A DNA stretch of 64,000 bases, taken from Pyrococcus kukulkanii. GTDB lineage: Archaea; Methanobacteriota_B; Thermococci; Thermococcales; Thermococcaceae. Below are positions 25,019 to 60,264 of this stretch, one piece after another. A model generated the notes under the pieces. The model made no database searches. It worked only from the letters and a program-made list of their open reading frames with translations, and had not been told where the DNA came from. Position 1 is the first letter of the stretch. Each line of letters begins with the position of its first letter. The DNA is taken from contig NZ_CP010835.1 in assembly GCF_001577775.1 (NCBI RefSeq), positions 434,001 to 498,000 on the forward strand, given 5' to 3'. The translations under genes and the position numbers were made by a program.

Positions 25019-25033
25019 GGAGTTCACTATGTT

Positions 25034-25075: not shown

Positions 25076-25135
25076 ATTGGCTTAAACAAGCTATGCGGGC
25101 TTTTTCTCAGGAGATTTTCCCATGGAGGGGTTACT

Positions 25136-25303
25136 ATGGATTCTGTTGAGAAGATTAGGAGGAGGCTCAGGAGGCTTGAGAAGGAGGAACTGAGGCTCAA
25201 GAAAATCATACATCACGCACAAGAACAGCTCGTAAGAGTTGAACGTGAAAAACTCCAGCTACGCCAAGAACTACACAAATTGGAGAAGGTGATGTCAGTA
25301 TGA
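25136..25303 (+). CDS. Small coiled-coil protein (55 aa)
   Basis: Starts MDSVEKIRRRLRRLEKEE at 25136 behind GGAGGGG and ends in ATGA overlap with the next gene. It is almost wholly a basic/acidic coiled coil with no membrane segment. The overlap and strong ribosome site support it as real despite its length. Function unknown; first gene of the envelope-module operon. Confidence 0.65.
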   Translation: MDSVEKIRRRLRRLEKEELRLKKIIHHAQEQLVRVEREKLQLRQELHKLEKVMSV

Positions 25304-25653
25304 ACGCCAAGAGCCTTCTACAGCTCTTGATATTCTTAGTGATCTTGGGTCTCTGGTATAAAATTGCATGGCCGATCATGGACAAGACTTCCATTGCTAT
25401 AGGTTCTGTTGGAGGTATATTGCTTCATTGGGCTCTTACGAACAAGGGTAACAGGAATATCATTAACATTAGGCCCTTCTCGGCTGGCTGGCGTGTGCTG
25501 ATTTATGACATGCTCTTGTTGAGTTTTCTGTTCGCTCTGTTGAAGCAAAGCAACTTCGCTCTTCTTGAAGCGTTCAAGAACAACGTTCAGAACTTGATTT
25601 TGCTAATGAGTTTGATTGGAGCTATAGGGATTGACTATGGAGTGGAGGGGTGA
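25300..25653 (+). CDS. Small membrane protein of the envelope module
   Basis: 117 aa with three or four hydrophobic segments (near residues 5-25, 30-47, 64-83, 97-113). No family recognised. It overlaps the coiled-coil gene by 4 nt and is 3 nt before the large secreted protein, so co-translation is likely. Confidence 0.65.
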   Translation: MNAKSLLQLLIFLVILGLWYKIAWPIMDKTSIAIGSVGGILLHWALTNKGNRNIINIRPFSAGWRVLIYDMLLLSFLFALLKQSNFALLEAFKNNVQNLILLMSLIGAIGIDYGVEG

Positions 25654-25656
25654 GGG

Positions 25657-27576: not shown

Positions 27577-27580
27577 GGTG

Positions 27581-29875
27581 ATGCTCTTCTCCAAAATATT
27601 TTCCTTTTTGAAAAGAGAACGAAAAGACAGAGAAGGAAAGAAGAAAGGAAATGAGCAGAGGAGAGAACGTAAGAAGGCTTTAACAAGTGCGACGTTAATA
27701 CTCATGCTATTAGTTAGCATCTATTCAGAACCTGTCGCGGCCTTGGATTTGAAATCCCTATTCAGTAAGTCCCCTGCAGGTTTTCTCTATAACTTCTGGA
27801 AAGGGTATTTCAGCACAGTGAAAAATAATGGACTTGGGGCAATAGCTGGAGCATGGGCTGGATGTAAGGTTGGAGGTGCGGTTGGAGCAGCAATTGGTTC
27901 CGTTGTCCCTGGAGTGGGAAATGCTGTTGGTGGAGCACTTGGGTGTATCGGAGGGGCAGTTGCTGGAGCATTTTTTGGGGCAAGTGCCGAACAGAAGCTA
28001 AAAGATAAGATAACAAATAGCAGGATATACAAGTGGATTTTTGGCAATAATGATAAAGAGAAGACAAGTTTATCAATTTTACAGCCAAGGAACATCTCAT
28101 ATAACGAGTATGCATCAAAGACCACCCTCCTTGAAGTATTCAACACAACATTTGTCAATATGAGTGAATTGCTACAAGCTGAAGCTAAGGATTTCCAAGA
28201 ACTAATGGCAAGGCTTGCCCCGAAAATCGGCGAGTATGACCTTGAAGAAGCAGATGGTAATGTTGGCGAATTTAAGAATGTGGAAATTGAAGGACCATAC
28301 AACATTTACGGCTTTAGTGCAATCCCAATCAAGTTCACCCTTTCTCCAAGAGGTAACGAGGAGGTAAAGGATCCAATATGCTTGACTAGTGTTTCTATAT
28401 ACGCATACACAAAGGACGGCAGGAAGCTTTGGACAAGAACATGGACATTTAAGCCCGGTGAGAAGTGTGGTGAGGAAGGGACAGTATGGTCATTTGAGAC
28501 TGTTCTAAAAGGGCCAGATCCTTATGTTAATGAGATTGATAAGATCATCAATGGGCTTGCTGATGCTGATACTGTTCAGAAACTCTACCTTGCAACTCCA
28601 GCTGACGAACCATATGAAATTGTTGCCGAGGTCCATGGGATAAGAATGATTTATTACAACAAAGGCGGACAGTGGATTTTTGACCACAATGAAACAATAT
28701 CTGCAAGATGGAGGACTTCTAGTGCATATAAACACCTTGCTGCTGGAAGGATTGAGATTGGTGGCTTTAGGGAAGGAACACTTCCAGTAGATATGAAAGA
28801 TGATCCTAAGGCAAGCATGTTTGTTCCGTATCTAATGAGAGGCTCAGGAGCTGCGTCGAACATAATAGTAAGGGCATGGGCAAATCCCCTCCACATTGTA
28901 AATGCAACATCAACATTCAAGTTCTACGTTGGAGCTAATACTAAATTCTTCGATGAGCTGATAAATGACTTTAAAGTCGAGATAAGCGATGAGTCAAGAA
29001 TTGTTGTTTATAGAATTCTAAAAGATGGCCATTGGGAGCTCGCAGCAACATTACCTATGAATGGATTAGCCTCTTTGGGGGACCTTAGAAGTCCAACGCA
29101 TTTAGAAGGAGCAGTAACGTACCATGAGTCATCAAATGTTGCCTCATATAGAGTGTTCTTTGCAATAAAGGCATATGTGAAGAGAGATGACGGAATAAAG
29201 ATTCCAATTTGGTTACTTATCGAACCAAACATTGCTGTAATGTCAAACGTTGGGAGGGTTGTAAGACTAGACCCAACGTTCAGGCAGATTGAGGATCTTA
29301 CAAGTGACAATGAATGGAGTGCCTATGATGCAGAGCAGGCAAGAGCTCTTGTTGATACCGTGATAAAGCAACTAAAAGACAAAATAGAAACGGCAGAATA
29401 TTGGATTGAGAGAGGGAGCCAGCTTGGGAATAAAGATGTCGTTGAATATGCAAAGAAGGCAAAAGAACATTATGAGGAGGCAATCCGCTATGCTGAGAAG
29501 ATAAAATCTGCAAACAACATAAACGACGTGATAAGGTATCTTGAGATAGTAAGAGATGAAGAGATTGCTGGAGATTATTATCTCGAAGCTGCAAGACAGG
29601 CAAGCTTCAACAACAAAGAGCAAGCAGAAACACTTGCTGAAACTGCAGAGAAGGTATCAAAAGTTGCAAACAAGTATAAAGGAGGAGTTGCAGCACTACC
29701 AATACCTACAGATTGGAGCGACATAAGAGAGCTTGTACCTTTCATCATAAGAATAGTAGTGTCTATTCTAGCAATTTACATTGCAAGACAACTCTTCGGA
29801 ACCGTTGGAGCTCTTGTTGTGGGGATAATAGTTGGACTATGGTGGGTAGGGCCAATGTTCGGGTTCCACTTATGA
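27581..29875 (+). CDS. Large membrane protein with glycine-zipper region
   Basis: 764 aa from the ATG at 27581 (a GTG one codon upstream is part of the GAGGTGAGG site). A strongly basic N-terminus precedes a membrane segment near residues 38-53. Residues 85-130 are a Gly/Ala-rich zipper with small-residue repeats, typical of helices that pack in membranes. A long mixed domain follows, then a helical/coiled-coil part at 580-700 and two C-terminal helices at 720-765. No family name can be given; probably a central envelope or transfer component. Confidence 0.68.
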   Translation: MLFSKIFSFLKRERKDREGKKKGNEQRRERKKALTSATLILMLLVSIYSEPVAALDLKSLFSKSPAGFLYNFWKGYFSTVKNNGLGAIAGAWAGCKVGGAVGAAIGSVVPGVGNAVGGALGCIGGAVAGAFFGASAEQKLKDKITNSRIYKWIFGNNDKEKTSLSILQPRNISYNEYASKTTLLEVFNTTFVNMSELLQAEAKDFQELMARLAPKIGEYDLEEADGNVGEFKNVEIEGPYNIYGFSAIPIKFTLSPRGNEEVKDPICLTSVSIYAYTKDGRKLWTRTWTFKPGEKCGEEGTVWSFETVLKGPDPYVNEIDKIINGLADADTVQKLYLATPADEPYEIVAEVHGIRMIYYNKGGQWIFDHNETISARWRTSSAYKHLAAGRIEIGGFREGTLPVDMKDDPKASMFVPYLMRGSGAASNIIVRAWANPLHIVNATSTFKFYVGANTKFFDELINDFKVEISDESRIVVYRILKDGHWELAATLPMNGLASLGDLRSPTHLEGAVTYHESSNVASYRVFFAIKAYVKRDDGIKIPIWLLIEPNIAVMSNVGRVVRLDPTFRQIEDLTSDNEWSAYDAEQARALVDTVIKQLKDKIETAEYWIERGSQLGNKDVVEYAKKAKEHYEEAIRYAEKIKSANNINDVIRYLEIVRDEEIAGDYYLEAARQASFNNKEQAETLAETAEKVSKVANKYKGGVAALPIPTDWSDIRELVPFIIRIVVSILAIYIARQLFGTVGALVVGIIVGLWWVGPMFGFHL

Positions 29876-29898
29876 TTTAACTTTTTGGAGGTGAGGGT

Positions 29899-30429
29899 AT
29901 GGGGGATAAGCAGGGTGTTGGTGAAAGAGCTGGCAACTACTTCCTCAACAAGATAGGGCTAAGACTAACCATAACTGGCATCATGGCCACAATTGCATGG
30001 TATGCTCAGGAAAAGAGTGTTAGTATAGCAGAATTCAATGCAGCTTATGCATCAATTCCCCTAACGGGGATAATGCTTGCAATGCTCTTTGACTATGGGC
30101 TCGATACTGGTAAACTCTACAACAGAATGCTCGGCAGAGGCAAAAGTCCACTTTCAAAGCTTGCTTTTGCCATAGGTGCAGTTGCAATGTTCTTCCTAGC
30201 ATTTACTTGGCTCTTAGCAGGGACAATCACGCTGAACTTCGCAACAATAACACCAGCAACGCTGATAGCATCAGCTTTTGTAGCCCTCATAATTCTTCTC
30301 CCACACACTGGTACAAGTGAATGGCTCCTATGGCTGTGGATAGCGGAGACAATAGTGACTGGAGGAGCTTACTTGACAATTCTGCCAGCAATTTCCCTGC
30401 TTATTGGAGCACTTTTGGGAGGTGTTTAA
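29899..30429 (+). CDS. Polytopic membrane protein, first of a tandem pair
   Basis: 176 aa with about five hydrophobic helices. The C-terminal half contains AGTITLNFATITPATLIASAF and LWIAETIVTGGAYL, which recur in the next gene, so the two are paralogues. It starts behind GGAGGTGAGG. No known family; lies between the glycine-zipper protein and its paralogue. Confidence 0.66.
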   Translation: MGDKQGVGERAGNYFLNKIGLRLTITGIMATIAWYAQEKSVSIAEFNAAYASIPLTGIMLAMLFDYGLDTGKLYNRMLGRGKSPLSKLAFAIGAVAMFFLAFTWLLAGTITLNFATITPATLIASAFVALIILLPHTGTSEWLLWLWIAETIVTGGAYLTILPAISLLIGALLGGV

Positions 30430-30430
30430 C

Positions 30431-30943
30431 ATGCAGGTACCAAAGAAATTAAACAATGTAAATTACCTGATAAAGCTTGTCCTCGTTGCATTCGTTGGGG
30501 GCTTTGTACTGAAATGGGCTACTGGTCAAAATATAACTATCAATCAATACGTTGAGGCTATTGCCTCAACACCAATTTATGTGATTATAGCAATAGAAAT
30601 CCTAGATAAACTATCAGACAAAGTTGATTACGAATTCTTGGGCTTTGCTTACGGATCAAAGTTCGGAATTAACAGAGTACTCATGAGTTTAATCATTGCA
30701 GGAATTGGATTTGCTGCAGTCCTATACTTCATGGCTGGCACAATAACATTCACAGTAGAAGCCTACAATACCGGAGTACTGTTAGCAGCGGCAACCTATG
30801 CATTATACATAGTAGCTCCAGAAACCGGCGATGATGAGCTAATTTTGTTCTTGTGGTTAGCCGCAACAGTTGCCACGGGAGGAGCTTACCTGTCTAAAGC
30901 ATTTAGCTTGCCCCTTGCTCATTTAATACTTCTTACGAGGTGA
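30431..30943 (+). CDS. Polytopic membrane protein, second of a tandem pair
   Basis: 170 aa from the ATG at 30431, which is 6 nt after GGAGGTG; a start at 30404 would lie in the previous gene. About five hydrophobic helices. AGTITFTVEAYNTGVLLAAATYAL and LWLAATVATGGAYLS align with the preceding protein at the same distance from the C-terminus. An acidic PETGDDE loop matches PHTGTSE there. Function unknown. Confidence 0.66.
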   Translation: MQVPKKLNNVNYLIKLVLVAFVGGFVLKWATGQNITINQYVEAIASTPIYVIIAIEILDKLSDKVDYEFLGFAYGSKFGINRVLMSLIIAGIGFAAVLYFMAGTITFTVEAYNTGVLLAAATYALYIVAPETGDDELILFLWLAATVATGGAYLSKAFSLPLAHLILLTR

Positions 30944-30949
30944 TCAACA

Positions 30950-31288
30950 ATGCTTGGCAGGATTGCAGTAGCTCTCATCGCCTACCTCCTCTGCATTTTC
31001 CATTTCCAGGATAGCGTGATTACTGTGGGTAAACTCTTGGGACTCTCGGGCTTTTGGGCACTATTTGTGCCCTCGACAATTGTAGGGCTCAGCATTTACA
31101 GAATAGCTGACTTAGACAATTGGGGAATTTGGGATGCAATAAGCCTACTCTCCCTCGGAACAATAGCAATGCTCGCAATAACCAGTAATCCAACTGCAAC
31201 TGTCTATGAACTAATCAAGGGAGTTGTTAGCTTCTCAGTAGCCGCTATTCTGGCAGCATTAACAATCAAAGGGGGTAGGAGGGCATGA
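30950..31288 (+). CDS. Small membrane protein of the envelope module
   Basis: 112 aa, about four hydrophobic helices and short loops, ending KGGRRA. No family recognised. It overlaps the next gene by 4 nt (ATGA) within the co-directional operon. Confidence 0.62.
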   Translation: MLGRIAVALIAYLLCIFHFQDSVITVGKLLGLSGFWALFVPSTIVGLSIYRIADLDNWGIWDAISLLSLGTIAMLAITSNPTATVYELIKGVVSFSVAAILAALTIKGGRRA

Positions 31289-31527
31289 ATACTAGCGAGA
31301 TTATCACCCAACTTCAGAATTTTGCAACACAACACCCCTACATTGCCCTTGGAGCAATACTCCTCCTCATAGGAGCCCTAATCAGAGGAAAAACAGCATT
31401 TGTATTTTACATACTTGGGGCCCTTGCATTGATTAAAGCGTTTGGATTATTCGATACTTTCGTTTCTTTCCTAAAACAAGTCCCTGGAATGATTAAAGAC
31501 CTAGCAAGCGTATTTGGGGGTGGTTAG
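31285..31527 (+). CDS. Small two-helix membrane protein
   Basis: 80 aa with two hydrophobic segments (residues 20-34 and 39-60) and an amphipathic C-terminus ending in GGG. Such short proteins occur repeatedly in archaeal virion membranes and secretion systems, but no family is identified. The stop is directly followed by the ATG of the next gene. Confidence 0.6.
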   Translation: MNTSEIITQLQNFATQHPYIALGAILLLIGALIRGKTAFVFYILGALALIKAFGLFDTFVSFLKQVPGMIKDLASVFGGG

Positions 31528-32304
31528 ATGAGGAAGAAGGAAAGGTTGTACGTAACATTTGGTTTAGTCCTGATATTTGCCGCCATAGCCTGGTATGCAT
31601 ACAATGGCTTCCATGGGGGCGGCTTTGTAGACTTGAGTAACATCCTGAAGAACAGCACCAACGAGACTGAAAGCTACAAGCTCGCAATCAGCGATCTTAG
31701 TGCTTCAGTAGATCAGGAAACTGGACATGTGATAGTCAGCTTCAAGCTTGCTAATGAAGAGCACTTCAACATCTCTAGTGTCCAAGTCCTATACGCACTC
31801 AACGTTGCCGATCCAAAGAATGCAACTTACCAAGAACTCAATGCCAACAAGGACAATGAAACCTACAAGGCCGAAATACCAAGTGCATTTGGAGATCTTG
31901 TTTACTACAAGGTCAAGGTTACTTATGACGGCAACAAGACGCTTGAGAGCGACGTAAAGAGCATAACCGTGAAAGACACTACCGCTCCAACAATACAAAA
32001 TATAACAGTCAGTTATAATGCCACTGATGGCAACGTTACCTTCACGATAGCAGCGCTTGACAATGATGCCCTGGACAAGGTAATCCTCTACTATGCAATA
32101 AACCCAACCGAGAACACTACATTCTCCAACATAACTCTAACAGTGAGCCCATACGAGGTCAGAATTCCAGTAAGCCAGAACGATACCATAGTATTCTATG
32201 TTGAGGCCATTGACTTATCAGGAAACAAAGCCAGACTTCCAGGAGAAGGCTACTATGAGTTCCTGGCAAATGAAACTAAGGAATTAGTATTCCAGGAGGG
32301 CTGA
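31528..32304 (+). CDS. Membrane-anchored beta-sandwich protein, glycosylation-rich
   Basis: 258 aa: an N-terminal anchor (residues 8-25), then two Ig/fibronectin-like domains (about 45-145 and 150-245; the second begins DTTAPTIQNITVSYNATDGNVTF). More than ten Asn-x-Ser/Thr sequons suggest heavy N-glycosylation outside the cell. Probably an exposed structural protein of the envelope module. Confidence 0.68.
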   Translation: MRKKERLYVTFGLVLIFAAIAWYAYNGFHGGGFVDLSNILKNSTNETESYKLAISDLSASVDQETGHVIVSFKLANEEHFNISSVQVLYALNVADPKNATYQELNANKDNETYKAEIPSAFGDLVYYKVKVTYDGNKTLESDVKSITVKDTTAPTIQNITVSYNATDGNVTFTIAALDNDALDKVILYYAINPTENTTFSNITLTVSPYEVRIPVSQNDTIVFYVEAIDLSGNKARLPGEGYYEFLANETKELVFQEG

Positions 32305-32309
32305 ACCTG

Positions 32310-32789
32310 ATGAGGCCCTCCTCCTCAACTCCCTCTTTTGCCAAAGTTATTCTGAGAATCTTCATCTTGGTAATAATAGTCATGTTAGGATACCAAGTGC
32401 ATGCAGTCAATAAGCCAGACCCAATCAGGGAGAGATTATATGAGCTTGGATATCCAGACGAAGGCTTCATATTCAGCAATAACACCATAAGATGGTCTGA
32501 TGGCCACCTAACAATCCTGGAGGGTGACTACATAGAGGATTACCCCATTACGGCCACCCAAGCTTATGAGATCCTGAGAAACTACCTCGCTGATTATAAC
32601 CAGAAACTCAAGGAGCATGACATGAGGATAGAGCCAGATCCAAAGTCCTTATCTGAAAAGGAAGAAGATGACAACTACTATTGGGTTTTTGAGGTTTATG
32701 TTTATTCAGGCTCAAGCAAGTTCTTCGCTGGCCTTGCCTACGTGAATAGGCGGACTGGAGCTGTTAAAATCAAGGGGTTACTCGATTAG
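32310..32789 (+). CDS. Membrane-anchored protein with PepSY-like domain
   Basis: 159 aa: one membrane helix at residues 12-32, then a soluble part. Residues 80-157 resemble a PepSY fold (ITATQAYEILRNYL helix, YYWVFEVYVYSG strand, AYVNRRTGAVKIKG end). PepSY domains can inhibit peptidases or bind cell-wall partners, but the role here is unknown. It lies 5 nt after the preceding gene. Confidence 0.6.
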   Translation: MRPSSSTPSFAKVILRIFILVIIVMLGYQVHAVNKPDPIRERLYELGYPDEGFIFSNNTIRWSDGHLTILEGDYIEDYPITATQAYEILRNYLADYNQKLKEHDMRIEPDPKSLSEKEEDDNYYWVFEVYVYSGSSKFFAGLAYVNRRTGAVKIKGLLD

Positions 32790-32802
32790 GAGGTGAGTTT
32801 CT

Positions 32803-33252
32803 ATGAAAAGGATCCTTGCATTAATACTCATATTAGGTATTATTATGGGCGGGGTCGGCTGCATCCAGAAGGAGGGTAACGCCATAATACTTAGCTTTGG
32901 CAACGAAACCTACACCTTCACCCTCCCCGAGAACCTGACCAATACAACAACTCAAACCCAAACCCCCACCACGTACACTTATGAGAAGAGAGTTGAAGCT
33001 GGAAAGATTTTAGTCATCGAGGATCCAAGGATTGAAATCAAAGTTGACTATGAGATCAATAAGGGCAAGTTCGTCTTCTTTGTAACTTACAACAATCAGA
33101 CAAATCACTATTACGAGCCCATGGACATCGAGATCCAGGGAATAAAAATTCATGGGGAAGGCTATTGGGTTGGAACCTCCCTCTACATTGCAACCATTAA
33201 AATCGAGAGTCCAAGAGAACTCTCCTTCTCAGTCAAGGAGGTGAGCCAATGA
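32803..33252 (+). CDS. Putative lipoprotein
   Basis: 149 aa. A signal peptide ends in a lipobox-like GGVGC, so Cys20 could be lipidated. A Thr-rich linker (TNTTTQTQTPTT) precedes a beta-rich domain. Sits on the outer face of the membrane. No family recognised. Overlaps the next start by 4 nt. Confidence 0.65.
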   Translation: MKRILALILILGIIMGGVGCIQKEGNAIILSFGNETYTFTLPENLTNTTTQTQTPTTYTYEKRVEAGKILVIEDPRIEIKVDYEINKGKFVFFVTYNNQTNHYYEPMDIEIQGIKIHGEGYWVGTSLYIATIKIESPRELSFSVKEVSQ

Positions 33253-34025
33253 AACGCCTTCTCCCAATACTCCTTATTATTCTACTAAGCACTCCAGGAT
33301 TTGCTTACTATTCCTGGACTGGCACGGTAGATCCTGGAACAATACTCTATGTTGGCAACCTAACAGTAAAGGTAGATCGAGAAGTCTCAGGAAACAGGAG
33401 CATACTAAGCATTGGGGATACCTATGTCATGGAAGGGCAGAAAAAGACTATACAAGAGCTAACTTTCGAAGTTAAAACCTTCAACAACAAGACTTACGTC
33501 CTTATAACATCAGAAAAGCCATTCGAGGTTAAGTTTTCCAAAGCCACTCTTATTACAGAGAAATTAAAGAAGCAGGTTGAAGAGCTGAAAGCAGAGTTAG
33601 AAAGTGCCAACAAGAAAATAAAAGCACTACAAGATGAGAATGCAAGGCTAAAAAGAAGGCTAAGCGAGTTAGAAAAGCAGAAGCAGACGGCAGACGTGAG
33701 TAAGCTAAAAAGACAGATAGCAAACCTAACGAGAGAAAATAGAGCACTAAGGGAACAAATCGCTAACTTAACCGAGAGAATAAATGCGCTCTTAGGAGAG
33801 AATGAGTTTCTCAAGCAGCAGAATTCAGAATACAAGAAGCTGATCAGCTCGCTTTTAAAAGAACAAGCACAAAGAAGCGAGCAAGACTACTTAGAGAAGG
33901 CGAAAAGAGAGAAGCTCATTGGCTCTATTCTCCTGAAGAGCTTAGTCTTTTCCCTAATGATAGTCATCACAGCAGGTTATTTGCTCTACAGAGCAAAGAG
34001 AAGTTACGAATATGGAGGGCTCTGA
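33249..34025 (+). CDS. Secreted coiled-coil protein with C-terminal membrane anchor
   Basis: 258 aa: signal peptide (residues 1-19), beta-rich head (20-95), continuous coiled coil (about 100-215) and a membrane helix at 228-246. A stalk of about 15 nm with a head outside the membrane is implied. It is the last gene of the envelope operon; about 165 bp follow before the ATPase, including an AT-rich TATA-like segment near 34075-34085. Confidence 0.68.
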   Translation: MKRLLPILLIILLSTPGFAYYSWTGTVDPGTILYVGNLTVKVDREVSGNRSILSIGDTYVMEGQKKTIQELTFEVKTFNNKTYVLITSEKPFEVKFSKATLITEKLKKQVEELKAELESANKKIKALQDENARLKRRLSELEKQKQTADVSKLKRQIANLTRENRALREQIANLTERINALLGENEFLKQQNSEYKKLISSLLKEQAQRSEQDYLEKAKREKLIGSILLKSLVFSLMIVITAGYLLYRAKRSYEYGGL

Positions 34026-34191
34026 AAAATGTATTGTGCGAAAGCAGCAATATTTTGTTTTAAAATTAAATCGTACACTATATAACAACTCTATTCAATG
34101 AAAGAAGCTATGAAACGGGCGTAATTTGTTATAAGTCAAGAATAAGCTGAAATCAAGGTGTTCGTGAAAAGCAGGCGGAGGTGTGGGTTAG

Positions 34192-35493
34192 TTGGGAGTA
34201 GAAATCTACATAGGGAAGAATTCAGAAAAAGAAAAGAGGTATATTGAGTTGAAGGAAAATGAGGCCAACCACATTACTTTTCTCGGCCCAAGTGGAAGTG
34301 GCAAGACCACAGTAATGAGGGCCCTAGCAGAAGAGATATTCGAAAAAGTCCCTGGAGCCCTAGTAATAGTAGTAGAGCAGAAATTCGACAAGAACAAGGT
34401 GAAAGACCTCAATGACTTCATTAAAAAAGTGGCAAGAGTAAAGGGCAGGGACTATGTGAAAGAGAAGTATGGAGAAGTTCTCAACTACCTAATAAAAGTT
34501 GCAAACGACGGAATAAAATACGGGAAAATGGGAGACTTCGCCTTCGGCTGGCCAAACTACCCCTTCTCAATAATTCCAGCATCAGAGAATGACAAACACA
34601 GCATCCTAAGCTACCACGGATTACACCCAAAGAAGTTTCCAGTAAAAAGAATAGTCTTCAGGCCAGTGAGAGATATAGATGCAATCGAGAGAGACAACAA
34701 CTGCGAAGTTGTAGAGGGCAAAATAAGGTACAAAGACATAGACTTCTCATTCATCGAAAAAATCGCTCAAATAAACAGGAATACAATCTACGGGAGAATC
34801 ATTAGGCAAGCATGGGATCTCGAAGGGCTAAGGGATCCAAAACTGCTTGAGAATTTTGCCGAAGAGTGGGAGAGAAAATACCGCCCAAACTCCAACAGCC
34901 CAAGCACAACATACCTATCAATAATGGAAGTAGCCGAGTTATTGAAAAAGGACCGACTGCTAAACAAGGACAAAGATTTTACCTCAGAGCTAACAACTGA
35001 CAAAATAATCGTCATAGACTTCTCTGCAAACAGCGAGCTCTATGGCGAAGAGGAAGCCTGGATAATCAAACACTTAGTTGACTACATAGTAACAAAGTTT
35101 GTCCGCTTCAGGAACACGCCAGTATTCATGCTCTTTGATGAGATCCAAAACATCCTCCAGTACCACTATGGAAGGCTTGCAATCGAGAAACTACATAGAG
35201 AAGGCAGATCCAATTGGGTAAACATAATCGCAGGAACACAATACATGTACGGCCTACCAGCCTTCCTAATCTATGGTGCAGCACACATAGGAATAGTTGG
35301 AAGAATAGCAAGTGCAGACGACGAAGCCCTGTTAAGCAAGGTCATAAGGGATTTTCACAGGATAAAAGAGCCAAGAGCTAAGACTTTTGATGATTATAGA
35401 AAGCTCAAGCCACAACTAAAAGGTAGAGGCTGGTTCTCCTTTGATAAAATGTATACTGAAAGAATGTATTTTCGCCCTCCACAAAGCCTGTGA
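34192..35493 (+). CDS. HerA/VirB4-like P-loop ATPase
   Basis: 433 aa, TTG start 8 nt after GGAGGTG. Walker A is LGPSGSGKTT (residues 31-40), the Walker B region is PVFMLFDEIQNIL (near 310) and a C-terminal sensor-like segment is AGTQYMYGLP. It belongs to the HerA/FtsK/VirB4 superfamily, whose members pump DNA or drive assembly and secretion. Next to a membrane/secreted module it most likely powers DNA packaging or transfer; genome segregation is an alternative. No membrane helix of its own is seen. Confidence 0.82.
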   Translation: MGVEIYIGKNSEKEKRYIELKENEANHITFLGPSGSGKTTVMRALAEEIFEKVPGALVIVVEQKFDKNKVKDLNDFIKKVARVKGRDYVKEKYGEVLNYLIKVANDGIKYGKMGDFAFGWPNYPFSIIPASENDKHSILSYHGLHPKKFPVKRIVFRPVRDIDAIERDNNCEVVEGKIRYKDIDFSFIEKIAQINRNTIYGRIIRQAWDLEGLRDPKLLENFAEEWERKYRPNSNSPSTTYLSIMEVAELLKKDRLLNKDKDFTSELTTDKIIVIDFSANSELYGEEEAWIIKHLVDYIVTKFVRFRNTPVFMLFDEIQNILQYHYGRLAIEKLHREGRSNWVNIIAGTQYMYGLPAFLIYGAAHIGIVGRIASADDEALLSKVIRDFHRIKEPRAKTFDDYRKLKPQLKGRGWFSFDKMYTERMYFRPPQSL

Positions 35494-35502
35494 GGTGATT
35501 TT

Positions 35503-36207
35503 ATGTTCGGGTTCTTAAAAAGGAAGAAAAAGAAGAACGAGCTTGTGGAAAACCTCCCCAAAGCCGTTGAAGATGTGGAGACGATACCAATTGTTGAGGA
35601 CTACGTTTTTGAGAGGGCCAGGAAGCTTAGAGAAATCAATTACAAATCCGCCCAAGTCTTCGAGCCAAAGCAAAAACTCCTCATATGGTTCAACGGGAAA
35701 GAAAGCAAGATAATAGGCTACCCAAGAGGCCTAAGGGTAGATCTAAATGACTACCTAATCCTATACCAAGTCCGCCCACCAAGCTGGCTTGACAGTGTTA
35801 CTTACTCCCTACTAAGGATCCTTGGAAAGCACCCTCCCTTGGCGGTCATTAGGGCCCCAAAAGAGATAGTGAAGTTTGGAGATGAGATAATAACAATCCT
35901 GGCGCATGCCTTCATAATAAATGAATTCCAAGAATACGAGGCAGTGCCACTCTCGCATGACGTTGTTGATGCAAAGCTGTACCTTGCATTGAAGAAAGAG
36001 AATGACATGCTTTGGGATCTCATAGAGATCCTAAGGCACAGGGTTCCAGAAGTTGTTGAGGATGCCATGAAGATGAACCCAAGAATAAAGACCTACATGA
36101 GCACAAAGAGCAAGGACGAAGTTGAGGGAACACAGAGCGAGAAGTTTGGAGGAGTTGAAGTAGAGTTTAGCGATCCATTCACCCGCTTCAGAGGGATCAA
36201 GCTATGA
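35503..36207 (+). CDS. Unknown protein, partner of the element ATPase
   Basis: 234 aa with a lysine-rich N-terminus (FGFLKRKKKKNE) and a mixed alpha/beta body; no membrane helix. It is 10 nt after the ATPase and overlaps the next gene by 4 nt, so the three form one unit. No family recognised; a cytoplasmic adaptor for the ATPase is a reasonable guess. Confidence 0.62.
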   Translation: MFGFLKRKKKKNELVENLPKAVEDVETIPIVEDYVFERARKLREINYKSAQVFEPKQKLLIWFNGKESKIIGYPRGLRVDLNDYLILYQVRPPSWLDSVTYSLLRILGKHPPLAVIRAPKEIVKFGDEIITILAHAFIINEFQEYEAVPLSHDVVDAKLYLALKKENDMLWDLIEILRHRVPEVVEDAMKMNPRIKTYMSTKSKDEVEGTQSEKFGGVEVEFSDPFTRFRGIKL

Positions 36208-42568: not shown

Positions 42569-42629
42569 ATGGACACTAACAAAGAACAGGGAAAAGAAAC
42601 AAGAGAACCATTAGCGAAGTTTCAGGCTA
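42557..42629 (+). repeat. 73-bp direct repeat, copy 1 (5' end of abrB-like gene)
   Basis: Identical over 73 bp to 47690-47762. It covers the ribosome site GGCGGTGAG, the ATG and the first 20 codons (MDTNKEQGKETREPLAKFQA). The sequences differ at once on both sides. The copies bracket 5.1 kb and are in the same orientation. Confidence 0.95.
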
Positions 42630-42817
42630 AATTAGACAAAGAAGGGAGAGTAATGATACCAAAAGCAGTTAGAGAAGCCTTTGAAGCACTTGCGAATGCC
42701 TATGACCTCGCCTTCCTTGACGAGCAGAGGCAAGAAATCCTAACGGCGTACAAACTGCTAAAAGCAGCACTATTACAAATAGATGGGGGGAAATACTTGC
42801 CACAAAAAGTTAAGTAG
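42569..42817 (+). CDS. AbrB-like protein, chimeric or truncated
   Basis: 82 aa. The first 20 residues are identical to the second AbrB protein. Residues 20-40 follow the AbrB/SpoVT strand pattern (AKLDKEGRVMIPKAVREAF), but the second half of the swapped-hairpin domain is missing and replaced by a helical tail (LANAYDLAFLDEQRQEILTAYKLLKAALLQ). It may not bind DNA. It overlaps by 8 bp the end of a convergent gene. Confidence 0.6.
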   Translation: MDTNKEQGKETREPLAKFQAKLDKEGRVMIPKAVREAFEALANAYDLAFLDEQRQEILTAYKLLKAALLQIDGGKYLPQKVK

Positions 42818-46206: not shown

Positions 46207-47400
46207 TTAAACAAAAACAAAATGTTTCTCAACTAATTTTCTCAACATCTCCCTAACTTCTCTGAATTCTTCAGTAGTGGGAGGTACTCTTCCTTTTGGT
46301 TTAATAGAGAATTTTACATGGTTTACAGTTTTAAGGCCTTCTGTATATCCGGCACTGAATTTGTATTCATGCTCTACATATTCAAATTCACCTCTAACCC
46401 CTATAACCTTTCCACCATCATCCATATATTGTTTAACAACAGGATAACTATATAGATCAGCGTTTCTTCCTTTTACAGATATTCTTTTTGTATTTGCATA
46501 TAGGTTAATAGGATTTCCATTTGCATCCTTAATGATATTTCCCTCCTGATCTTTTAAGAATCTCGTTGCAAGTTTGGTAGATATGTAAACATCTTCGATC
46601 CAAAGAGGAGGTACCGAGGATTCATTGAGGTTTGTATTTCTTGCACTTTCTATAATCTGCTCAAGCTCTAAAAGGAATTTATTGAAAATGTCATTAGCCT
46701 CTTTTGGAGGTTTATTCTTTAGGCCAGTATCTGCTAGTTGAATTCCAAGAATTTCTCTTAGTATTCTTTTTGCTAGCTCTACATCAGCAGCTGTCCTTGA
46801 GTATATATAAACCAAAACATTGGGAGACCTGTTAATTACCTTTATTTTAATTGGGATATACATTCTATAAGAAATTTCTTGAATGTCAAAGGCTTCTGTC
46901 AGAATTTTCTTACTTTTTAGATACCAGTATCTAAATTCTAAGTATCTATTTCCATCTGTTCTATTATCTTTAGAGAACTCTACAATTTCAAATCCAGGTA
47001 AAGAGTTAGCATCTTCCATTGAATAAAGATTTTCTTCAATTGCCATTTTTATCTGATTCAAATCAATTTTCCCTGATTTTGCTAAGTTAACACGAAGTAT
47101 ATTAACAGTTCGAGGTTTTTTAATTTCCCGTTCTATTTTTACCCGATTTATTATTTCATTAATTTCGAAAGTCCGCCAAGATATATCAGGAGATTCTAGG
47201 GATTTCAAAAGATTTTTAATAAGGATTTTTGAAGACCGCTGATCTCGTGGAAGATGTCCTAATTTAGTTTTATATAATCTTACCAAATAGCTGTATGAGA
47301 CATTTTCTAGATATACCTCCAATGTGTCCCTAATTTTTTGTCTTTCTTCAAGAGTTAATTCTCTATCCTCACTAAATTCCAACATCATTATCACCACCAA
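46207..47400 (-). CDS. Large soluble protein of unknown function
   Basis: 397 aa, start either the first codon or the MMLEFSEDRE methionines 12-15 nt in. Mixed alpha/beta and charged, without membrane helices. Contains a VRGEFEYVEHEYKF segment and a helical N-terminus (LTLEERQKIRDTLEVYLENV). No family recognised. First gene of a two-gene leftward unit with the membrane protein at 45278. Confidence 0.6.
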   Translation of the reverse strand: MVVIMMLEFSEDRELTLEERQKIRDTLEVYLENVSYSYLVRLYKTKLGHLPRDQRSSKILIKNLLKSLESPDISWRTFEINEIINRVKIEREIKKPRTVNILRVNLAKSGKIDLNQIKMAIEENLYSMEDANSLPGFEIVEFSKDNRTDGNRYLEFRYWYLKSKKILTEAFDIQEISYRMYIPIKIKVINRSPNVLVYIYSRTAADVELAKRILREILGIQLADTGLKNKPPKEANDIFNKFLLELEQIIESARNTNLNESSVPPLWIEDVYISTKLATRFLKDQEGNIIKDANGNPINLYANTKRISVKGRNADLYSYPVVKQYMDDGGKVIGVRGEFEYVEHEYKFSAGYTEGLKTVNHVKFSIKPKGRVPPTTEEFREVREMLRKLVEKHFVFV

Positions 47401-47701
47401 AAATGTTATCCCTTAATCCATAGTAAGGCGATCATACATAATTATCAATTTGGGATAACACCTAATAATCCTCTAGGATGTACTCTTTCCTATTTAAATA
47501 ATTTTCGGACGTAATTATTACCCCTATTTATCGTGTTAGAATTTTACTCCTCTAGCTCGGCTTTTCTAGCCAGACGCTAAAACATAAACTAATCAAGTAA
47601 TTCAAATGTCACAATCCCAATAACCTTATGAGGGTCAAACCCCACATATAACCAAAACCTGTAAATGATAACAGAAATTGGTTATAATGGGCGGTGAGCA
47701 C
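47401..47701. promoter_or_regulatory. Intergenic control region with two inverted repeats
   Basis: About 300 bp between the divergent 397-aa gene and the second abrB gene. TGTTATCCC (47404-47412) pairs with GGGATAACA (47452-47460) just upstream of the leftward gene. TATAACC (near 47647) pairs with GGTTATA (near 47680) just before the abrB start. Both are placed as operators would be; no protein gene is seen. Confidence 0.45.
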
Positions 47702-47762
47702 ATGGACACTAACAAAGAACAGGGAAAAGAAACAAGAGAACCATTAGCGAAGTTTCAGGCTA
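47690..47762 (+). repeat. 73-bp direct repeat, copy 2 (5' end of abrB gene)
   Basis: Identical to 42557-42629. Here the repeat leads into a complete two-domain AbrB protein, so this is probably the parental context. Confidence 0.95.
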
Positions 47763-48076
47763 GGATAGATAGAGATGGAAGGCTAATTATCCCGAGGTAC
47801 ATCAGAGATGCCTTGAATATCGAACAGGGCGATTATGTCAAGATAATACTAAGAAAAATCAATGTAAACCTTGAGGAAAGGACTATATATGTACTTAACC
47901 AGGCTCAGGTAATTTCAAAAGTTGGAAGAAAAGGAGCAGTTCACATCCCAAATGACCTTAGGAGGGACTTAAACATTCAGCCAGATGAACTTGTTGAGGT
48001 TATACTACTTGACTTCTACAAGAGAAAAGTTCCTGATGAAAACACTCAATTCAAGTATGTTTTTTTGAACGTTTAA
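47702..48076 (+). CDS. AbrB/SpoVT-type regulator with two domains
   Basis: 124 aa from the ATG at 47702. Two swapped-hairpin units are visible: residues 20-48 (FQARIDRDGRLIIPRYIRDALNIEQGDYV) and 78-110 (AQVISKVGRKGAVHIPNDLRRDLNIQPDELVEV). Tandem AbrB domains in one chain are common in archaea. Probably a DNA-binding regulator of the element. It shares its first 20 codons with the truncated gene at 42569. Confidence 0.8.
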   Translation: MDTNKEQGKETREPLAKFQARIDRDGRLIIPRYIRDALNIEQGDYVKIILRKINVNLEERTIYVLNQAQVISKVGRKGAVHIPNDLRRDLNIQPDELVEVILLDFYKRKVPDENTQFKYVFLNV

Positions 48077-48393: not shown

Positions 48394-48409
48394 AAAGCTT
48401 ATAAGCTTT
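48394..48409 (+). promoter_or_regulatory. Promoter TATA element of the right-hand module
   Basis: AAAGCTTATAAGCTTT is a perfect 16-bp palindrome centred on CTTATAAG. It lies about 25-30 bp upstream of the tandem operators, where a TATA box is expected. Confidence 0.55.
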
Positions 48410-48423
48410 CCTTCCGTATGGTT

Positions 48424-48461
48424 TATGGAACTAAGTTCCATATATGGTCTTTAGTTCCATA
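48424..48461. promoter_or_regulatory. Two abutting 19-bp palindromic operators
   Basis: TATGGAACTAAGTTCCATA (48424-48442) is a perfect dyad with a one-base centre. TATGGTCTTTAGTTCCATA (48443-48461) follows without a gap and keeps both outer TATGG/CCATA arms. They cover the expected transcription start and end 17 bp before the gene for an RHH-like protein. Cooperative autorepression is the simple reading. Confidence 0.8.
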
Positions 48462-48478
48462 ATTTCAAGGTGATGAAA

Positions 48479-48640
48479 ATGGCAAGGAGAAGGAAATATG
48501 AGGCAATAAGGCGCGTTGAATTCTTACTTCCTCCAGATAGAGTTGCTGAGATGGAAAAAGCCAAAGGAAAGAAGTCCTGGGGCGAATTTATTTGGGAACT
48601 CTGGACGTTTTGGAAAAGCCACTTTAGGAACGGTGTCTAA
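48479..48640 (+). CDS. Small RHH-like regulator (53 aa)
   Basis: Starts MARRRKYEAIRRVEFLLPPD at 48479 behind AAGGTGATG. A basic N-terminus and beta strand (RRVEFLLP) precede a short helix and a Trp-rich C-terminal helix (WGEFIWELWTFWKSHF). It is the first gene after the tandem palindromes, which fits a dimeric RHH autorepressor. Below usual gene-length cut-offs, but well positioned. Confidence 0.68.
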   Translation: MARRRKYEAIRRVEFLLPPDRVAEMEKAKGKKSWGEFIWELWTFWKSHFRNGV

Positions 48641-48641
48641 A

Positions 48642-49337
48642 ATGAGGTATAGCAGGCGCCCTGGGCCAGGAAGGCCTCGAAAGTATGGAGAGGATCTAAA
48701 GAAACTTCAAGCCCATGTACCTGAATCTACTTATGACGCCTTATATGAGATGAAAGAGACTCTTGGAGTTTCATTACCTGAGCTTCTCACATGGCTCGTT
48801 AGGTTGGCAAAGGGGAACATTGAAAAATTGAAAATTCTGGCTCAGTACACACACCTTAGGGAGTATATATCTAAACTTGAGAAAAAGTATTCTGAGCTTG
48901 AGGCTAAGTTTCTGAAGCTTCAGGATGATTATGAGAGGGTTTTGAAAGAGCGTGATGCTCTTCGCGAGGAAGTGAAGGCTCTGAAGGCCGAGCTGGCTGA
49001 ACTCAAGAGACAGCTAAAGATGAGTGCAAGAGAGCGCCAGGCTGAGGATCTCAGGCTCGAAATCTACGAAATCCTCGACAAGTATGGTAGAGATGGCAGT
49101 ATAAAGATGTTAGATCTTCTCAAGAGGCTTGGTTATTCTGGTGATTACTTGAGGCATGCTAAGGAGTTCCTGGAGCGCTGGTTTGTAGATCAGGGCAGGA
49201 TTCTAGTCTCTGAGGAGTTGGGGCTTGTAGTTGAGAAGGATTTGAGGTTTAGGGAGCTCGGTTGGATTGTTAGGGTTGCAAAACGGGATGAGGAGAAATT
49301 TCGCTCATCAGGAATAACTGAGGGGGTGGTTGCATGA
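48642..49337 (+). CDS. DNA-binding coiled-coil protein with AT-hook-like N-terminus
   Basis: 231 aa from the ATG at 48642, one base after the preceding stop. The N-terminus RRPGPGRPRKYGE contains an AT-hook core GRPRKYG, then a short helical segment (ESTYDALYEMKETLGVSLPELLTWLVRLA) of RHH-like type. A coiled coil covers residues about 75-145, and a C-terminal winged-helix-like part (SIKMLDLLKRLGYSGDYLRHAKEFLERW) follows. It may be the DNA-binding core of the element's replication or partition system. Confidence 0.62.
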   Translation: MRYSRRPGPGRPRKYGEDLKKLQAHVPESTYDALYEMKETLGVSLPELLTWLVRLAKGNIEKLKILAQYTHLREYISKLEKKYSELEAKFLKLQDDYERVLKERDALREEVKALKAELAELKRQLKMSARERQAEDLRLEIYEILDKYGRDGSIKMLDLLKRLGYSGDYLRHAKEFLERWFVDQGRILVSEELGLVVEKDLRFRELGWIVRVAKRDEEKFRSSGITEGVVA

Positions 49338-49804
49338 CTGAGGTTGTGGCGGTTGTATTGACGGACATTGGAAGCTGGAGAAAAGGGGATTATATCTCTT
49401 TGGATATTGAAAGCTTCAGGGAGCTTTTCAAGAAGGGTGTCGTTGATTTTGCGAATTTGAGTGATTTCATTAATGAAGTGGCAAAGCTAAGGTATTTGGA
49501 GGCTAAATCTACTGAGTTGCAGGAGCTTGAGGATGACTTCTATGAGAAAGTCAAGCTTGTTGAGGAAGTTTTGTTGGCAAGGGCTAGGAGGGCTGATGCT
49601 TATGCCTTGGACACTCTTGGCAGGTTTAGGCTTCATGTTAGGAAGCTCAAGATGACTCGTTTAGAGAAGATCTTCTATGCTGCTCTCATCAGGCCAAATA
49701 GTCTCGAAATCGAGAATAAGCTAACAAAAGAGGAGAGGGTGTTCTATAGGAGGTGGAGTGAGGAGTTACGCGGATTTCTCGATGGGGGTGTTGTGAATGA
49801 GTGA
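49334..49804 (+). CDS. GINS-like protein (Gins23 architecture)
   Basis: 156 aa. The first 40 residues form a small beta domain ending GDYISLDIESFRELFKKGVVDFA, like the GINS B-domain. The rest is helical with ELEDDFYEKVKLVEE, LHVRKLKMTRLEKIFYAALIRP and LTKEERVFYRRW, matching the GINS A-domain (FYE motif, R-x-x-K-I helix, L-T-x-E-E helix). B before A is the order of archaeal Gins23/eukaryotic Psf2-Psf3. A mobile-element copy could recruit or replace host GINS at the MCM helicase. Overlaps the upstream gene by ATGA. Confidence 0.62.
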   Translation: MTEVVAVVLTDIGSWRKGDYISLDIESFRELFKKGVVDFANLSDFINEVAKLRYLEAKSTELQELEDDFYEKVKLVEEVLLARARRADAYALDTLGRFRLHVRKLKMTRLEKIFYAALIRPNSLEIENKLTKEERVFYRRWSEELRGFLDGGVVNE

Positions 49805-50027
49805 GGCTGAGTTTTAGGAGTGGGTTGCTCGGGAGATTAGGGCTGAGAGGCTTGAGGAGGGTAGGAGGGCGGTTGTGGAGTTGCTTGAGAGGGAGGTCAG
49901 GAATGCTGAGAGGTTCAAGTGGCGCTTCCTCAGTGAGGGGAACACTGAATCCTTCAACTATTGGGAGGGGTTTGAGGACGGGGTTAGACTCGCATTAAAC
50001 CTACTCAGAAAATTCGGGGTGGTTTGA
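49797..50027 (+). pseudogene. Small acidic/basic helical protein with in-frame TAG at codon 7
   Basis: The ATG at 49797 overlaps the GINS-like stop. The frame reads MSEAEF, then TAG (49815-49817), then continues EWVAREIRAERLEEGRRAVVELLERE and ends GVV at 50027, directly before the next ATG: 77 codons in all. The uninterrupted helical sequence and exact fit between neighbours show this is the coding frame. Downstream GTG/TTG starts could yield a shorter protein. Another open frame here (Arg/Gly-rich) is not believed. Confidence 0.55.
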
Positions 50028-50351
50028 ATGCCTGTTTACGTGGTTGAGGCTAATGAAGTCTGGCTTGTTGAGGCTGAGGATGCTATGGAAGCCATTGATG
50101 CATATCTCATGAAGAAGCTTGCTGAAGCACTCTTGGAAGGCAGGGATGCTGAGATTGGGGGTGAGGTTACTGCAACCCTCCTCCCCCTCCACCCCCACCA
50201 TTTACGTCTAATGTACGAGAATATTGGGAGGGTGGAAAAGGCTAAGGATGTCATGAGGTGGGCTAGGAGGGTGTGGGAGGAGAAGAGGAGGGAATTCTTG
50301 ATGAAAAAACAGGAGAAACAACTCACTCTTGCGGAAGTGGGGGTGGTGTGA
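50028..50351 (+). CDS. Unknown small protein
   Basis: 107 aa: an N-terminal strand/helix unit (VVEANEVWLVEAEDAMEAIDAYLMKKLAEALLEG), a Leu/His-rich turn and a basic C-terminal helix. No family recognised. Stop overlaps the next start (GTGATGG). Confidence 0.58.
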   Translation: MPVYVVEANEVWLVEAEDAMEAIDAYLMKKLAEALLEGRDAEIGGEVTATLLPLHPHHLRLMYENIGRVEKAKDVMRWARRVWEEKRREFLMKKQEKQLTLAEVGVV

Positions 50352-50872
50352 TGGTTTCTCGGGTTTCGATGATTAGGCAGGCGGTTCGTTATGGCCCCTC
50401 CATCTACAAACCCTTCTTTGATTACATGAAGAGGGAGGTAAAGTCGGCTGAGAACAGGTACCTCTTCAGTAGTCTTGTTGAACAGTTATTCCCTGGCAAG
50501 TTCGCCCTCTATGATCTGGATTCAATAATCTTTGACAAGGAGTCTAATACTCCCATTGCAGCTTTTGAATTGAAGTTCAAGAGTTGGTTTACTGCGGAGG
50601 AGGCTTGGTTGAACAAGGAGTTGGAGGTTAATGGCAGGCAGTTCCTCAGGCTCAGGATCCTAGCAAGGAGGATGGAAATTCCAATCTACTACTTCGTACA
50701 AGTTGGGAAGTACTTCGTCATGTTCAACGTCCTCAGGGTAGGTTATGAGTTGGAGGAGAGGCACGAGGGCCCTGCAAAGGACTTGTATGCCATCATAAAC
50801 TTGGATGACGCAATTGTATCAAGATCCCTGGAGGACCTGAAGACTGATCTTTCACTACTTCTAAGGTGGTGA
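50351..50872 (+). CDS. PD-(D/E)XK nuclease-like protein
   Basis: 173 aa from the ATG at 50351. A conserved-looking Glu helix (SAENRYLFSSLVEQLFPG), then LYDLDSIIFDKESNTPIAAFELKFKSW, gives Asp and E-x-K at nuclease-fold spacing; a further helix carries QFLRLRILARRME. This resembles archaeal resolvase/RecB-type nucleases. Position in the replication-like module suggests DNA processing. Length is close to Hjc/Hje resolvases, but their other motifs are not clear. Confidence 0.62.
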   Translation: MVSRVSMIRQAVRYGPSIYKPFFDYMKREVKSAENRYLFSSLVEQLFPGKFALYDLDSIIFDKESNTPIAAFELKFKSWFTAEEAWLNKELEVNGRQFLRLRILARRMEIPIYYFVQVGKYFVMFNVLRVGYELEERHEGPAKDLYAIINLDDAIVSRSLEDLKTDLSLLLRW

Positions 50873-52026: not shown

Positions 52027-52380
52027 ATGCCAAGGCGGAGAAAGATCCCTGGAGAGGTTATGATGAAGATTCCAACTATGGCTCCACCAGATACTGCCTT
52101 GGAATTGCTGTTTGAGGGTAAGACCTTGGAGATCGCCAGGAAGGTTGTTGAGTACTTGAAGAAGAACAAGGCCCTCTGGAAGGATGAATATGAAGAAGCA
52201 CTTGGGATATCGGGAAGTGATAGGATTCTGTATTTTAGAGTCATAAGAAAGATGCTTGCAGCGGGTATGATTTACGAGGACAGGGGGACATACAGATTAA
52301 GCAAAAAGTTTGCTGAAAGAATGGAAAACCTAGCAAAACTCTGGCTCTTCGAGATCGGGAAGGTCGAAGAAATCTGGTGA
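52027..52380 (+). CDS. Winged-helix DNA-binding protein
   Basis: 117 aa. Residues 35-95 form a winged HTH (ARKVVEYLKKNKALWKDEYEEAL, DRILYFRVIRKMLAAGMIYEDRGTYRLSKKF). A basic N-terminus (PRRRKIPGE) may add DNA contacts. Last gene before int(N); may control integrase expression or copy number. Confidence 0.68.
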   Translation: MPRRRKIPGEVMMKIPTMAPPDTALELLFEGKTLEIARKVVEYLKKNKALWKDEYEEALGISGSDRILYFRVIRKMLAAGMIYEDRGTYRLSKKFAERMENLAKLWLFEIGKVEEIW

Positions 52381-52444: not shown

Positions 52445-52726
52445 ATGCGCAAAATACACAAAATACACACTAATGAAAGAGGCAAGCATAGAGGAGATTC
52501 AGCCAAAAGGAGGAGAAAGAGACGGCTTAATATCATGGTTGATTGGGAAGTGGGCGAGGCGCTGGATAAACTGTACCTCAACAAATCTAGATTTATTAAT
52601 GATCTCCTTAGAAGCGTCCTGTTTGGGGAGGGAAGCATTATGGAAGTTCAAAATAGAATTTGGTGGACCGGGCGGGATTTGAACCCGCGGCCTCCGCCTT
52701 GCGAGGGCGGCGCTCTCCCAGGCTGA
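52445..52726 (+). CDS. SSV-type integrase, N-terminal fragment int(N)
   Basis: 93 codons. Begins MRKIHKIHTNERGKHRGD, then an RHH-like segment (LNIMVDWEVGEALDKLYLNKSRFINDLLRSVLFG) and the tRNA-encoded GRDLNPRPPPCEG up to 52708. The last residues beyond the core are host tRNA. Joined to the left fragment at the core it regenerates an integrase of about 364 codons in phase. An N-terminal RHH region fits SSV-type enzymes. Confidence 0.82.
   Translation: MRKIHKIHTNERGKHRGDSAKRRRKRRLNIMVDWEVGEALDKLYLNKSRFINDLLRSVLFGEGSIMEVQNRIWWTGRDLNPRPPPCEGGALPG
52607..52708 (+). repeat. Right attachment region
   Basis: Partner of 22321-22422. The 48-bp core 52661-52708 lies in the complete tRNA-Ala gene. The left 54 bp are coding sequence of int(N). 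Integration preserved an intact tRNA at this side. Confidence 0.92.
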
Positions 52727-52737
52727 GCTACCGGCCC
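52661..52737 (-). tRNA. tRNA-Ala(CGC)
   Basis: 77 nt with encoded CCA. Reverse strand reads GGGCCGGTAGCTCAGCC..., acceptor GGGCCGG/CCGGTCC with one G-U pair, anticodon loop CTCGCAA giving CGC, and T arm GCGGGTTCAAATCCCGC. It is the integration target, and its 3' 48 nt are duplicated at 22375-22422. Confidence 0.95.
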
Positions 52738-58749: not shown

Positions 58750-60264
58750 TTAATTCTCTACTTGCAAGATATAAAATTCCCACCAGTGAAACACGATCCT
58801 AAAATTTCTACCCTCTTCAAAATCTTTAATTGTGACATTGTAGGCCCATTTTACATAGGGGCCCAAAATTACGTATTTGACCTCATATTTCTCGATAATC
58901 TTTGATCTTTCGCTAGGATTTGTGAAAAATAATTCAATATCCTTTCTTCTCTGCTCCATGTTCAAAAAGGGATTTCCGTGCCCAAATGTTACAGCCACTA
59001 CAGGCCGTCCAGTAAAGCCCGCAATCCATTCTAGAGTGTAGGGATGACTAATTAAACAGTCATCACGATTAGTATTTTCGCTGATCCATCTGGAGACCTT
59101 TACCAAGCCTTTTGTGTAGTTTCCAGCTAATTTCTCGAAATCTACATAAGTGTACGTCGGGAAGGCATAGAAAGTGCTTGGATTGTGAAAGTTGTAGTCA
59201 ACAAAGGAAATTGAACCATAAGTCAAGAGTATTGCCGAAATTCCAAACACTACAAACTTTCCAGCTTTAATTTCCTCAAGAATGCCCCACGATTCCGCAG
59301 AAATACGCAAGTAAGTAAGTGTAGTGAAGGGGAATCACAAATCGAGATGGAAATATCTCGATTCCAGTAAAGATGAACAGAATCGATGGAAGCACGTTAA
59401 CTACTCCCACGATTCCGAGCATGAAAAATGTGAAATCCCGGGGCTCACATTTCCTGCCCTTCCACAACGCCAGTATCAAGAGAGCTATCCCCCAAACTGG
59501 AGGGAGAACCCTTCTTATTGTGGCATATGGGGAGAGGGAGCTTAGCCAGTTGCCCTCCACCATTAGAGATGCTCCATGTTCGATATGCAGAAAAACATTA
59601 ACTACAAATGGTGAAAATATTAAACCGCCTACGAGAGGGAGAAGCAACCAGGATTTGTTCTCTCTGTTCTCTCTGGATTTAAGGAGGGCATAGAAAAACA
59701 ATCCAATGAAAACCGGCATAGCACCCCCATAGTGGCTCCACAGCATTAGACCCAGCAACAAGCCTGCATAGAGGAGGTATTTTCTTTTTCCAGTCTTTTG
59801 GTATCTAAGGACTTCCAAGTACAACAAGGGAAGGAAAATTGGAATTAAGGCCTTAGGATTTGGGAAAAGTTGCGAGTTCATTATCAGAAATGAAAGCGGA
59901 ACCCAACAAAACTCCACCATATCTCTTGTCAATTTCTTCCCCGAGCTTGTACCATGCAAAGACTATCAACACGGCAAAGACCAGCGGAGTCCAGATCATG
60001 AGGGTCCAGATAGAAACGTGAGTAACTTTTGCTAAGAATGCCATAAGAAAGTGGTAAAGGAAGGGGTACCAGTTTGGATAGACCTTGTAGTGCTGGTCGA
60101 GGAAAGGATTTCTGCCAAGGAAAATCCCCCTAATCATTGCCATGTGGATTATAGTATCTCCACCGTTAGCCCCCGACTGGCATTCTCCTGTCATGGATAA
60201 CCATAAAGTTCACAACAAATAAAATCAGTAAAAGCCAAAGCAACTCTGGTTTTATCCTCTTCAT
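58750..60264 (-). pseudogene. Decayed GT-C-like membrane protein gene
   Basis: Homologue of the element-borne protein at 23495, aligning over the full length (NGGDTIIHM, NPKALIPIFLPL, HPYTLEWIAGFTGRP blocks, most residues identical). It is broken at least three times: an extra G at 60170-60174, a shift near 59898 and an extra G at 59285-59288. The start ATG is at 60264 (MKRIKPELL). The three surviving frames lie end to end. Probably non-functional unless the sequence is wrong at homopolymers. Confidence 0.82.

Follow-up and report, generated by a model that had tools for sequence, protein, structure and literature searches.

A diverged Gins23 paralog in an integrated pT26-2-family plasmid of Pyrococcus kukulkanii

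The 64,000-nucleotide stretch of the chromosome of the heat-loving archaeon Pyrococcus kukulkanii NCB100 analysed here (the window, which begins at base 434001 of the 1,977,126 bp genome) contains an integrated plasmid of the pT26-2 family, and one gene of this element almost certainly encodes a paralog of Gins23. The claim, as judged from sequence and a predicted structure, is for a Gins23 paralog and not for a working GINS subunit. The explanation we favour, tentatively and at not quite even chances, is that a captured and diverged Gins23 serves as an accessory adaptor that would favour host MCM on the origin of the element.

A Gins23 fold encoded in the window

The original prediction had placed a GINS (Gins23)-like protein of 156 residues at this locus, and both the profile search and the comparison of a predicted structure with a Thermococcus GINS that were proposed along with it speak in its favour. 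The coordinates and strand of the reading frame were correct (Table 1), and it shares 4 bp (ATGA) at its start with the end of the gene before it, here called RHH-CC. The NCBIfam Gins23 model NF053565 gives a significant match to residues 17-144 (E=4.7e-13), with a score below the 120-bit cut-off of the model, a cut-off that no chromosomal Gins23 passes in any of 94 Thermococcaceae genomes. The PDB sequence match is to Gins23 of T. kodakarensis (3anw_B, E=6.7e-14), and the match to Pfam Sld5 is marginal (E=0.071).

The AlphaFold model of the protein (pLDDT 91.3, pTM 0.81) has strands at residues 3-8, 20-24 and 37-39 and then helices at 69-85, 89-119 and 132-151, that is, a small beta domain followed by a helical A domain, which is the B-then-A order predicted at the outset. 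The top Foldseek match is T. kodakarensis (Tko) Gins23 (3ANW chain B; E=2.7e-10, TM 0.81), followed by Sso GINS and human Psf2; matches to viral structures were partial and non-significant. The three signatures read from the translation are real and lie at residues 69-71 (FYE), 109-113 (R-x-x-K-I, here RLEKI) and 130-134 (L-T-x-E-E, here LTKEE). At least 90% of chromosomal Gins23 sequences share R109, K112, L130, E133 and E134, and all five element copies described below keep them.

Table 1 Features of the element and of the operon around the Gins23 paralog, in window coordinates
Feature	Position	Strand	Basis
Tyrosine integrase, C-terminal part, split by integration	22312-23253	+	ORF; 73% identical to PHV1 integrase
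Integrated pT26-2-family element, PkuNCB100_IP1	22321-52708		Genome 456,321-486,708, P. kukulkanii NCB100
Left attachment repeat, within split integrase gene	22321-22422	+	44 + 48 bp exact matches to 52607-52708
HerA/FtsK-like ATPase in pT26-2 common gene block	34192-35493	+	PF01935 E=1.3e-7
Cumulative GC skew minimum of element; possible origin region	47321-47570		Weak
SpoVT/AbrB-type DNA-binding protein, first module gene	47702-48076	+	MazE_antitoxin PF04014 E=2.7e-14
TATA-like box	~48398-48405		Sequence reading
Tandem palindromes just upstream of operon	48423-48462		Repeat search
Small ribbon-helix-helix-like protein	48473-48640	+	Translation
RHH-CC, putative origin/operator binder	48642-49337	+	Weak ribbon-helix-helix N-terminus, long coiled coil, winged-helix-like C-terminus
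Gins23 paralog, 156 aa	49334-49804	+	ORF, profile and PDB sequence matches, AlphaFold, Foldseek
Small helical protein	49797-50027	+	In-frame TAG at codon 7; intact in L064:11056-11328 and L065:8419-8769
107-aa protein, same operon	50028-50351	+	ORF; family search without significant match
Holliday-junction-resolvase-like nuclease	50351-50872	+	phrog_27407 E=1.7e-37; conserved in related modules
Winged-helix-type transcriptional regulator	52027-52380	+	phrog_32591 'transcriptional regulator' E=2.9e-51
Right attachment repeat, overlaps tRNA-Ala	52607-52708		Direct-repeat match
tRNA-Ala	52661-52737

The host element

Carriage by a mobile element had also been predicted, and the gene does lie within an integrated plasmid of the pT26-2 family. 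Together, the terminal direct repeats of about 102 bp, the tRNA-Ala gene and the split integrase give limits equal to those of Badel et al. 2019 (PMC6972569), so the element is PkuNCB100_IP1, which their table includes in this family. Fourteen ORFs (22312-36207) are matched by syntenic homologs in the regions of PchGC74_IP1 and PHV1, the block with the HerA/FtsK-like ATPase being syntenic in PyaCH1_IP16 and the element of genome G092 as well, and the integration shows a tRNA gene target, end repeats and a type I integrase that has been split. One gene of the element (23495-25018), for a large membrane protein, has a homolog in several broken frames beside a tRNA-Arg gene (58750-60194), and two genes judged by eye to be of McrC and McrB restriction-like type, followed by a small MazG-like gene, occupy 18352-21810, just outside the left end.

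The family Rep types are MCM, MCM-like and t26-22p, and no Rep was reported for PkuNCB100_IP1 (Badel 2019, PMC6972569); the Rep column of Table 3 in that paper has '-' for this element and likewise for PchGC74_IP1 and PHV1. A search with PF00493 detected no MCM within the element, and any replication role of the Gins23 paralog must therefore use host MCM. In the family, origins have mostly been predicted close to Rep genes (PMC6972569). In PkuNCB100_IP1 the minimum of the cumulative GC skew is found about 1.8 kb upstream of the Gins23 paralog gene, which is weak evidence for an origin because gene direction flips there too. The element is integrated, and a gene neighbouring that of Gins23 in the operon is broken by a stop codon, so that its autonomous replication today is at most putative.

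The operon and its distribution

A second full-length Gins23 is present in five of the 94 Thermococcaceae genomes, namely that of the window, G005, G006, G092 and G057. The coordinates in G005 match PchGC74_IP1 (P. chitonophagus GC74) and those in G006 match PHV1 (P. horikoshii OT3), both species names being inferred from these matches. At least four of the five copies reside in pT26-2 elements, the core gene block being present in G092 too; the G057 contig is 3.6 kb long. All five lie in one operon type, downstream of RHH-CC, in the order AbrB-type gene, usually a small ribbon-helix-helix protein, RHH-CC and Gins23, with two genes between RHH-CC and Gins23 in G092. The position of the AbrB-type gene is conserved at all five loci, several related loci have small proteins like the ribbon-helix-helix one ahead of the RHH-CC gene, and the small helical protein and the resolvase-like nuclease are found near Gins23 in the longer loci.

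RHH-CC is assigned its ribbon-helix-helix N-terminus on a match to RHH_1 below the cut-off (E=0.02); its model has a pLDDT of 76 and a coiled coil at residues 45-125, and the fold search gave a C-terminal wHTH resemblance without significance. At the corresponding position, L064, L065 and L066 have palindromes of other sequence, which makes four loci with that of the window; these palindromes are likely to be operators for the ribbon-helix-helix proteins. The N-terminal stretch of the AbrB-type protein (MDTNKEQGKETREPLAKFQA...) is duplicated in the window (42569-42817 and 47678-48076), the copy at 42569 having another C-terminus. The TAG at codon 7 of the small helical protein corresponds to tryptophan in related elements, and the remaining frame is intact.

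The same operon occurs without Gins23 in other elements, e.g. TGV1 and PyaCH1_IP16, which implies that Gins23 is optional and not the sole missing Rep, and that replication cannot generally depend on it. Unrelated small proteins follow RHH-CC in several other elements; a Gins23 HMM found no divergent Gins23 in this variable slot of sister elements, and there was no MCM beside the RHH-CC modules examined, those of sister elements included. RHH-CC is a candidate initiator for the Rep-less group that includes TGV1 and PyaCH1_IP16. A module of AbrB-type protein, RHH-CC, small protein and nuclease is seen in Rep-less elements at L164 15075-18480 (TGV1 region) and L138 7358-9965 (PyaCH1_IP16). In genome G010 (contig C5, L136 7698-9781) the AbrB gene is 99% identical, RHH-CC is cut to its first ~60 residues and is followed by sequence resembling the PchGC74_IP1 nuclease, and no Gins23 is found there; this locus looks like a deletion or recombination of the AbrB/RHH-CC module.

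Divergence and selection

The host Gins23 gene is situated immediately upstream of mcm, and its product is about 29% identical to the element copy; a second, weaker match to the Gins23 profile in the host genome is taken to be the putative Gins51. Tko GINS has two contact areas between Gins51 and Gins23, one in the B domain and one at the C-terminal A-alpha5 helix (Oyama et al. 2011, PMC3114041). Trp30 of Tko Gins23 takes part in the B-domain contact and is conserved in human Psf2 (Trp47) and Psf3 (Trp71) (PMC3114041). Trp30 was located in our alignment by its residue number in that paper and the sequence of the 3ANW chain; every one of the 61 chromosomal sequences has tryptophan there, and all five element copies lack it.

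The EDWK block is likewise missing from all five element copies, as are several residues in the final helix. Residues lost in every copy make up 10 of 18 in the two contact segments and 5 of 56 otherwise, a difference (Fisher p=1e-4) that is indicative only, the segments having been delimited after alignment and four of the five copies belonging to one clade. The A-domain residues that are kept comprise L95, L105, R109, K112, R120, P121, S123, L130, E133, E134, Y138 and S142. With the Trp30 equivalent and C-terminal helix residues gone from every copy, a plain swap into host GINS is doubtful, and the paralog is probably not a plain interchangeable version of the host protein.

Four of the element copies, those of the window, P. 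chitonophagus, PHV1 and G092, group as a single clade (99/96) that excludes the chromosomal sequences, in a tree for which the outgroup Gins23 of other Thermococci scored too low to provide a useful root. The placement of the G057 copy is uncertain: one tree sets it apart, and the second joins it to the clade with support of 54/82. The AU test does not reject a Pyrococcus-specific origin for this clade (p=0.40). Between the window and P. chitonophagus copies dN/dS is 0.13, and on this basis the paralog is a maintained protein under purifying selection; the comparison with PHV1 gives a similar value (~0.13) at saturated synonymous sites, and the host Gins23 gene gives 0.04-0.07.

The viral family phrog_35510 shows weak similarity over most of the element Gins23 (E=3.2e-6 with the P. 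chitonophagus copy) and scores higher against element copies than against chromosomal ones, and viral relatives may therefore exist. A tblastn search for element-type Gins23 in plasmids, phages, IMG/VR viral contigs and GTDB contigs gave no significant match with the queries tried, a weak negative because sequences close to the window may be absent from these collections.

Possible roles of the paralog

That the paralog recruits or rewires host MCM, as was suggested originally, is a fair hypothesis. In the adaptor explanation that we tentatively favour, the operon would be an origin-binding and control module of the element, in which RHH-CC may bind near the AbrB/RHH intergenic region. Next to RHH-CC, Gins23 would serve as an adaptor, whether by itself, as a homo-oligomer or paired in a modified way with host Gins51, so that host MCM (with GAN) would be assembled or activated preferentially on the element and not on the chromosome. 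It would be an optional accessory to the module and not its only initiator. A more far-reaching version, which we regard as somewhat unlikely, is a takeover based on GINS, where the DNA-binding protein marks the origin and a captured Gins23, its Gins51 interface remodelled, assembles a GINS or CMG specific to the element around host MCM; if this were true, some pT26-2 plasmids would need no helicase of their own.

The combination of retained core A-domain residues and altered Gins51-contact segments would also suit a decoy or modulator that engages host MCM, GAN or Gins51 but forms no productive CMG, so that host replication is slowed or gated in favour of the element, and such a role agrees with the optional occurrence of Gins23 across related elements. 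However, its operon partners are DNA-binding proteins and a resolvase, not known counter-host genes, and elements of this kind have persisted in integrated form in three named Pyrococcus species, so that we consider this reading unlikely. The loss of Gins51-contact residues from every copy, together with a variable slot that holds unrelated small proteins in other elements, could alternatively mean that the Gins23 fold has been reused as a structural partner of RHH-CC or of the small helical protein, for instance in partition, integration or transcription control, with no role in CMG. This is distinctly unlikely in our estimation: the motifs common to all Gins23 are retained under purifying selection, and Gins23 is occasional where RHH-CC is common, hence it is not an obligate partner of RHH-CC.

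It is very unlikely that the gene is a passenger, i.e. a decaying duplicate of the host gene without present function. The stop codon in the adjacent small protein gene would fit decay, as would the shortened RHH-CC with no adjacent Gins23 in the related genome G010, but dN/dS is 0.13 in two comparisons and an intact frame is common to the elements of P. kukulkanii, P. chitonophagus and P. horikoshii.

Comparison with known systems

PkuNCB100_IP1 shares with the pT26-2 family (PMC6972569) the conserved gene block, the type I integrase and the tRNA-Ala target; it differs in the Gins23/RHH-CC operon, which is not presented as a replication module in the main text of Badel 2019. GINS is nowhere mentioned in that main text, in keeping with the original prediction that such a gene is not a standard feature of the family. 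A 2026 study of Thermococcales viruses describes MCM, primase and rolling-circle modules, and GINS is absent from its main text (PMC12934983). We found no report of an element-borne GINS in the open-access literature searched.

Compared with chromosomal Thermococcales Gins23 (3ANW chain B), the element copy has the same B-A order, the same fold (TM 0.81) and the motifs R109, K112, RP-S and L-x-x-E-E, whereas it is only 29% identical, lacks the Trp30 equivalent, EDWK and parts of the C-terminal helix, and is encoded in a plasmid operon instead of adjoining mcm. Elements of the order Thermococcales carry MCM, often with extra DNA-binding domains that have been proposed to combine origin recognition with helicase function (PMC12934983, PMC6972569), and MCM is carried by TKV1, pTN3, TPV1 and pMEFER01 among Thermococcales/Methanococcales elements (Krupovic 2010, as cited in Badel 2019, PMC6972569). 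The paralog resembles these helicases in being a captured CMG component that has diverged from the host copy, and differs from them in that an accessory GINS subunit has been captured by an element without MCM. Elements are already known to capture one CMG part, MCM, and the present case of GINS suggests that in some plasmids the captured component of the host replication machinery is not the helicase itself but another. A diverged and selected Gins23 in elements described as Rep-less is a candidate route to the host replisome, and it offers a natural variant for testing the importance of individual GINS contacts in the archaeal CMG.
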